DNA of 64,000 bases, from the NCBI RefSeq assembly GCF_900156545.1, contig NZ_FTNW01000003.1:434001-498000 (forward strand), read 5' to 3'. Position numbers and translations under genes: made by a program. The first letter of the stretch is position 1, and every line of letters begins with the position of its first letter. This stretch comes from Aquipseudomonas alcaligenes. GTDB taxonomy: Bacteria > Pseudomonadota > Gammaproteobacteria > Pseudomonadales > Pseudomonadaceae. Of the stretch, positions 55,146-55,293 are shown in pieces. Under the pieces are notes generated by a model. It was not told where the DNA came from. It saw only the letters and a list, made by a program, of their open reading frames with translations, and made no database searches.

Positions 55146-55160
55146 GCTCCACTTTGGTGC
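55146..55160. promoter_or_regulatory. NtrC-like binding site upstream of aapJ
   Basis: GCTCCACTTTGGTGC matches the NtrC-type consensus GCACC-N4-TGGTGC at all fixed positions but one. It lies 118 bases upstream of the -24 element of the candidate sigma-54 promoter, a normal enhancer distance, and directly ahead of the divergent estB start. Assignment is by pattern only. Confidence 0.5.
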
Positions 55161-55277
55161 GCATGATTGGTTTTGGTACGGGGGCGTGCGCAGCGCGTTG
55201 TCGATTTCGTTAAGAAGATGTCGCACCGCTAGAACTTTACCTATTGACCTTCCTTCAATACCGCTCGGTCACGAAGC

Positions 55278-55293
55278 TGGTACGCGCCTTGCT
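55278..55293 (+). promoter_or_regulatory. Candidate sigma-54 promoter of aapJQMP
   Basis: TGGTACGCGCCTTGCT fits the RpoN consensus TGGCACG-N4-TTGCW with one mismatch (T for C), with the invariant GG (55279-55280) and GC (55291-55292) exactly 10 bases apart. The transcript would start near 55305, giving a leader of about 230 bases. Confidence 0.6.

Follow-up and report, generated by a model that had tools for sequence, protein, structure and literature searches.

The estB-aapJ locus and its relatives

The window, by which we mean the whole 64,000-nucleotide stretch of DNA analyzed here, carries two divergent genes separated by a gap that runs from the estB start at 55141 (minus strand) to the aapJ start at 55534. 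estB (54482–55141, minus strand) is an open reading frame for an alpha/beta hydrolase of the Phospholipase/Carboxylesterase family (PF02230, 144.5 bits, over the cut-off), and the closest named record in our estB protein search belongs to Pseudomonas alcaligenes NBRC 14159 (96%). aapJ (55534–56562, plus strand) encodes a family-3 substrate-binding protein, which scores over the cut-off with PF00497 (62.6 bits) and below the cut-off of 256.35 with TIGR01096 (217 bits). It is followed on the same strand by two permease genes, at 56650–57846 (BPD_transp_1, 66.1 bits) and 57857–58954 (amino-acid permease family matches), and by an ATPase gene at 58964–59725 (amino-acid ABC ATPase family matches), named aapQ, aapM, and aapP by their order. 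The label aapJQMP is thus taken from gene order, and the gene content fits the name. Convergent with aapP, positions 59777–60736 (minus strand) encode an AraC-type regulator with a DJ-1/PfpI-like N-terminal domain.

We gathered 96 related loci, 30 through the gap DNA itself, which matched in 34 of 57 genomes, and 66 through the estB protein. In 81 of them aapJ lies divergently beside estB and, once four duplicates were merged, these gave 77 distinct gaps of 319–499 bp. These gaps share kinship, so that counts over them are not independent. While 30 of the 81 loci were chosen by gap DNA, the other 51 (49 distinct) came from the estB protein search, which is blind to the promoter DNA. The 15 loci left out showed no aapJ match beside estB: one (L080) ends at a contig edge, four are distant (L125 and L127–L129), and 10 were kept as controls.

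A conserved sigma-54 promoter upstream of aapJ

A sequence-only reading of this DNA had proposed a sigma-54 promoter with an exact GG-N10-GC in the gap. We recovered it at 55278–55293 (plus strand) as TGGTACG-CGCC-TTGCT (TGGTACGCGCCTTGCT), from which transcription would be expected to start near 55304–55305. The pattern TGGYACGN4TTGCW occurs once exactly in the window and twice when up to one mismatch is allowed, compared to 1.11 expected; in the 4.25-Mb genome, the exact pattern has three matches, and a reversed control pattern has one. Because the exact pattern is this rare in both window and genome, the site is notable by itself. The one-mismatch match, TGGTATGTGCCTTGCT at 30740–30755, lies inside a NUDIX-like reading frame with no dyad and is probably due to chance. 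The third exact match of the genome (L234, 1682–1697, minus strand) is found just upstream of a small uncharacterised frame, and no NtrC-like dyad scoring at least 9 with the glnK-trained matrix described below was found in that locus.

Conservation carries the case for this promoter. TGGYAYG-N4-TTGCT is present in all 77 distinct gaps, including every one of the 51 loci (49 distinct) obtained through the estB protein, and its N4 spacer takes 21 forms. The -24 element reads TGGTACG in 71 gaps, TGGTATG in five, and TGGCATG in one. Across the 55 gaps that have a TGTCGC word at the same place (see below), the promoter columns are nearly invariant, and many of the columns from -28 to -2 are near random. 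The left-out locus at the contig edge (L080) also has TGGTACGCGCCTTGCT at the usual place. None of the 10 estB loci without aapJ matches TGGYAYG-N4-TTGCT (2.5 kb of flank requested). The genome encodes rpoN (PF00309, 67.9 bits). The invariant -24/-12 elements, the variable spacer, and the presence of rpoN are strong evidence for the proposed reading, and sequence alone could hardly give the predicted sigma-54 promoter better support.

An NtrC-like dyad at a fixed distance from the promoter

The NtrC consensus is GCAC-N5-TGGTGC, and the sequence-only reading had placed a one-mismatch match to it 118 bases upstream of the promoter. Both statements hold: the dyad GCTCCACTTTGGTGC at 55146–55160 (site 1) has one mismatch, and its end lies 118 positions before the first base of the promoter, with 117 bases between them. 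A bare one-mismatch match is meaningless alone, since the window contains 12 of them for 12.83 expected from shuffles. An exact-pattern count over the genome (36, compared to two for the reversed control) was left unused, as the pattern is a near-palindrome, which makes the reversed control unfair.

We built a weight matrix from 35 distinct NtrC-like sites, taken from the pair that precedes glnK in each of 29 Pseudomonas genomes. Of 30 glnK loci, one (L151) failed the search pattern, and one of 29 first sites fell under the cut. These sites were picked for their resemblance to NtrC sites, so that the matrix presupposes NtrC control of glnK, which passages of PMC8443478 report for P. stutzeri. 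According to the same passages, NtrC sites in P. stutzeri are of the form GC-N11-GC, and NtrC raises amino-acid uptake functions; aap is not named in them.

The weight-matrix scan, which had been suggested as a check, ranks the dyad at the top of the window with a score of 13.5; the next match scores 13.1, at 27628. Scores of at least 13.5 occur 18 times in 342,934 positions of related loci outside the gaps, or about 0.007 per 125 nt, a rough rate given that these loci are related and coding-rich. Over the 77 gaps, the best matrix match falls at site 1 in 70, at a second site in two, and elsewhere in five. It reaches ≤0.05 against 200 mononucleotide shuffles in 62 gaps, in 60 of which it lies at site 1 or 2. 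The distance from site 1 to the promoter is 130–134 bp in 69 of the 77. The 15 gaps that score no better than shuffles are nearly all of Stutzerimonas-type genomes; in these genomes site 1 is GCTCCAGTTGGGGGC, with GGGC as right half and scores down to about 2.5, and GC-N11-GC is still kept.

Two or more dyads are common at NtrC promoters, though not required. In 58 of the 77 gaps, site 1 is followed by another GC-N11-GC at +19, +20, or +21. The window is among the 19 others: no second dyad was found in it, and the place of site 2 (55165–55179) holds GATTGGTTTTGGTAC, which is degenerate and not GC-N11-GC.

The genome has a single ntrC match over the cut-off (TIGR01818, 795.1 bits). Upstream of its own glnA, on which the matrix was not trained and which we named from the reading frame directly upstream of ntrB and ntrC, the matrix picks out a pair of dyads, scoring 16.3 and 15.1 and spaced by 31 bp, with TGGCATGCAATTTGCT downstream of them, 112 bp before the gene. 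A third amt gene was tried as a further positive control and rejected. It has an exact sigma-54 match, TGGTACGTTGGTTGCA, 308 bp upstream, and its dyads (13.1 and 12.6) lie between that match and the gene rather than upstream of the promoter (L235, 1692–1758 and 1920–1935), so that another promoter nearer the gene is likely. Elsewhere in the window, a palindromic NtrC-like dyad, GCACTTACTTAGTGC (27017–27031, score 11.8), lies between two divergent frames; the pattern scan of the window found no exact sigma-54 match there.

The presence of ntrC, the match to the glnK matrix, the fixed distance to the promoter, and the second dyad in 58 of 77 gaps support NtrC as the predicted activator, though less firmly than the sigma-54 promoter itself is supported.

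The dyad covers the presumed ribosome-binding sequence of estB

The left half of the dyad contains CTCC, the complement of GGAG, 6–9 bases before the estB start. GGAG is presumably the ribosome-binding sequence of estB, and the left half-site GCTCC contains its complement. The two half-sites are unequally conserved, with the left GCTCC in 75 of the 77 gaps and the right GTGC in 60. Among the 10 control loci with estB and no aapJ, GCTCC is found in four, and TCC is found near that place in all 10; a dyad scoring at least 9 occurs in only one, at a different place. Because GCTCC also occurs in these four controls, NtrC cannot be taken as the sole reason for the conserved left half. The ribosome-binding sequence would force a T where NtrC prefers an A. 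Since the dyad covers the presumed ribosome-binding sequence, bound NtrC would more plausibly hinder estB than activate it.

A conserved TGTCGC block between dyad and promoter

Between the dyad and the promoter lies TGTCGC-N8-AA (55219–55234, plus strand), which resembles an ArgR box and forms part of a longer conserved block reaching TTGACC, with its end at about 55249. Pseudomonas ArgR boxes have been given as TGTCGCN6GNAA, with variable half-site spacing (in passages of PMC10963909), and as TGTCGCN8AAN5 (in passages of PMC4997734). The exact TGTCGC-N6-G-N-AA form was not found at this place in the window, where an A replaces the G, and by eye we saw no second ArgR half-site after 5 bp. A by-eye look for an IHF site in the block gave none that was convincing.

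TGTCGC lies upstream of the promoter in 61 of the 77 gaps and is absent from 16; among the 77, no ArgR-like box was found in those of Stutzerimonas-type genomes. Counted from the first base of the -24 element, the word starts at -59 in 55 gaps, -60 in three, -61 in two, and -80 in one. Of these 61 boxes, 46 have AA at +14/+15, 11 have AT, and 16 have the exact TGTCGCN6GNAA.

The genome has an AraC/GATase-like gene, a putative argR, at the end of an aotJ-type operon (L232, 5226–6212). In this operon TGTCGCTTTGAAGAAA (TGTCGC-N6-GNAA) lies 183 nt ahead of the aotJ match, and TGTCGC-N8-AA is present in 27 of 30 aotJ loci, the other three lacking it within the 330 nt examined.

The aapJ leader and a possible second promoter

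With a start near 55305, the aapJ leader would be about 230 nt long. It contains TAGACT at 55414–55419 (plus strand; CTAGACT, 55413–55419), and TAGACT is found in this stretch in 53 of the 77 gaps. It may be the -10 element of a second promoter, of sigma-70 type, nearer aapJ. A consensus scan near aapJ gave no sigma-70 promoter, and no conserved -35 element was seen.

Just before the aapJ ribosome-binding site (55522–55528), AACAAGAA (55511–55518, plus strand) matches the A-rich Crc/Hfq motif AAnAAnAA, as defined in passages of PMC3003667. The strict motif is present in 24 of the 77 leaders. As a candidate Crc/Hfq target, AACAAGAA would add carbon control to nitrogen control.

As to RNA structure, we noted a possible hairpin at 55440–55469, then GCCTCACAAGGG; taken over 55440–55491, the stretch reads as a possible hairpin GTTGATCCTGCC-ATGGT-GGCGGGATCGAAC and, behind it, a GCCTCAnAAGGG box that is conserved. 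The anchor motif is present in 58 of the 77 leaders, and when these were tested for a local hairpin against mononucleotide shuffles the mean z was -1.66, a value that is suggestive only. RNAalifold on 38 sequences returned no consensus leader structure (0.0), and in a search for Rfam families no match in the window reached gathering level; between 54200 and 60000 the only match was a sub-threshold ctRNA_p42d at 59742–59773, outside the gap. About 25–40 nt beyond the sigma-54 site, in columns 227–240 of alignment A1, many relatives (L020, L024, and L028, for example) share a conserved GGTAACACTATCAG-like word that the three sequences closest to the window (L002–L004) lack.

aapJ homologues in other families

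A search of 143 genomes from the class gave an aapJ match at 1e-60 in 22, one of them the genome of the window, and the other 21 were compared. This set includes one homologue with only 294 nt upstream (L273) and two partial matches (L284 and L285). None of the 21 has promoter and dyad together, none has estB in the flanks examined, and none has an ArgR-like box. A weaker site of -24/-12 type, matching at 6 of 8 positions, was found in three, and a dyad scoring 12.4 in one. As neither promoter plus dyad nor estB accompanies these homologues, the Pseudomonas lineage appears to have acquired the promoter module along with the estB-aapJ arrangement.

Discussion

We consider that the estB-aapJ gap probably holds the promoter of the aapJQMP operon, which would be transcribed by sigma-54 polymerase and driven by NtrC under nitrogen shortage, with candidate inputs from ArgR and sigma-70. 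In our proposed mechanism, sigma-54 RNA polymerase would sit closed at 55278–55293. Upon nitrogen shortage, phosphorylated NtrC would bind the dyad about 130 bp upstream, or two dyads 19–21 bp apart in most relatives, and loop to the polymerase, so that transcription would begin near 55305. More amino acids would then be taken up as a nitrogen source. The box between dyad and promoter, a candidate site for an AraC-type ArgR, may tune this output to arginine, and a weaker sigma-70 promoter nearer aapJ may supply basal expression. The sites, their conservation, and the rpoN, ntrC, and argR-like genes are present in the DNA; from these we infer occupancy by NtrC and ArgR, the nitrogen response, and the start site.

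The same promoter could be real and driven by another enhancer-binding protein, such as CbrB or an amino-acid sensing regulator, the dyad being incidental or shared. The genome encodes 12 further sigma-54-activator-like proteins (matches above 200 bits), the Stutzerimonas-type genomes keep the promoter with a poor dyad, and passages of PMC8871633 describe NtrC and CbrB sites that overlap at hutU. However, the CbrB consensus from those passages, TGTTAC-N12-14-GTAACA, of which the first two subsites only were scored, has at best 5 mismatches out of 12 in the window. Over the gaps it does no better than shuffles (three mismatches or fewer in 8 of 77 gaps, compared to 65 of 770 shuffles), and CbrB was rejected as activator. 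The fit of the dyad to the glnK matrix and its fixed distance to the promoter also argue for NtrC, CbrB being the only alternative motif scored, and we regard a different activator as unlikely. It is more improbable still that the main promoter is of sigma-70 type, with its -10 at 55414–55419 and the sigma-54 site as a minor one. Such an arrangement would agree with TAGACT being kept in 53 gaps, and by eye a conserved TTAGACTTGAG also follows the sigma-54 site of glnK, an NtrC target. On the other side, the consensus scan and the search for a conserved -35 were both negative, and the sigma-54 site is better conserved; the two promoters are moreover not mutually exclusive.

As for the TGTCGC block, we did not file it as an ArgR site, and the odds that it is an ArgR box are about even. 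That another protein binds it instead, or that it belongs to an estB promoter on the other strand, is nearly as probable as not. Its conservation extends well past the box, with AA.AAG before it and TTT..C..TTGACC after it, and the aotJ context has only TGTCGC and AA in common with it. In addition, the exact TGTCGCN6GNAA occurs at chance level in the genome (61 matches, compared to 56 for the reversed control), its G is missing in the window, and only a minority of the boxes (16) have the exact form. In favor of ArgR, however, most boxes have AA, or else AT, at the ArgR position, and an argR-like gene ends the aotJ operon, with the exact form upstream of aotJ. Furthermore, passages of PMC10963909, whose main text does not name aap, describe a drop in several amino-acid transporters, not only those for arginine, when argR is mutated in P. 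alloputida.

Control of nitrogen scavenging by NtrC and sigma-54 is textbook knowledge. Like the aapJ gap, Pseudomonas glnK-amtB and glnA have a GC-N11-GC dyad upstream and a -24/-12 site downstream. The spacing differs: the dyads of glnA in this genome are 31 bp apart and those of glnK lie at about -90 and -123 of the glnK site, whereas the second dyad at aapJ is 19–21 bp off rather than 31–33, and is degenerate in the window. The aapJ gap also differs by its left half GCTC and by the conserved TGTCGC block between dyad and promoter. The E. coli astCADBE operon, reportedly activated by NtrC from a sigma-54 promoter and superinduced by ArgR (work of Kiupakis and Reitzer), has a nitrogen enhancer, an arginine regulator site, and a sigma-54 promoter in that order. 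The aapJ gap would share this order, the ArgR box here being a candidate. The ast operon serves arginine breakdown, whereas aap serves uptake, and the E. coli ArgR is unrelated to that of Pseudomonas, which is AraC-type (passages of PMC10963909). The glutamate/aspartate transporter aatJQMP of Pseudomonas, reported to be under RpoN and AauR (PMC7962211), is an amino-acid ABC transporter with sigma-54 control, as predicted for aapJQMP. Its activator is AauR, whereas the aapJ site points to NtrC. At hutU, passages of PMC8871633 place two NtrC subsites far upstream of the sigma-54 promoter of an amino-acid system, as at aapJ, but the overlapping CbrB site of hutU has no counterpart by consensus in the aapJ gap.

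In our searches of open-licence PubMed Central articles, no listed title or abstract start described the aapJ promoter, and it may well have been predicted elsewhere. On the evidence of its sequence, the aapJ promoter would be a real new member of the NtrC/sigma-54 nitrogen promoters, with a layout for which our searches of the open-licence literature gave no description. A bolder picture, which we hold to be rather doubtful, is that of a composite switch across much of the Pseudomonas lineage, in which NtrC, a Pseudomonas-type ArgR, and sigma-54 would line up to control a general importer of amino acids and converge on the layout of the unrelated E. coli ast promoter. With an NtrC half-site over the estB ribosome-binding sequence, nitrogen starvation would then raise uptake while repressing the esterase.

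The enhancer half-site lying over the presumed ribosome-binding sequence of the neighboring gene would be a small example of one DNA word under two constraints. The promoter elements are defined precisely enough to be mutated one by one. Through them, an amino-acid importer that neighbors estB in much of the Pseudomonas lineage would be linked with the nitrogen network and perhaps also with arginine.
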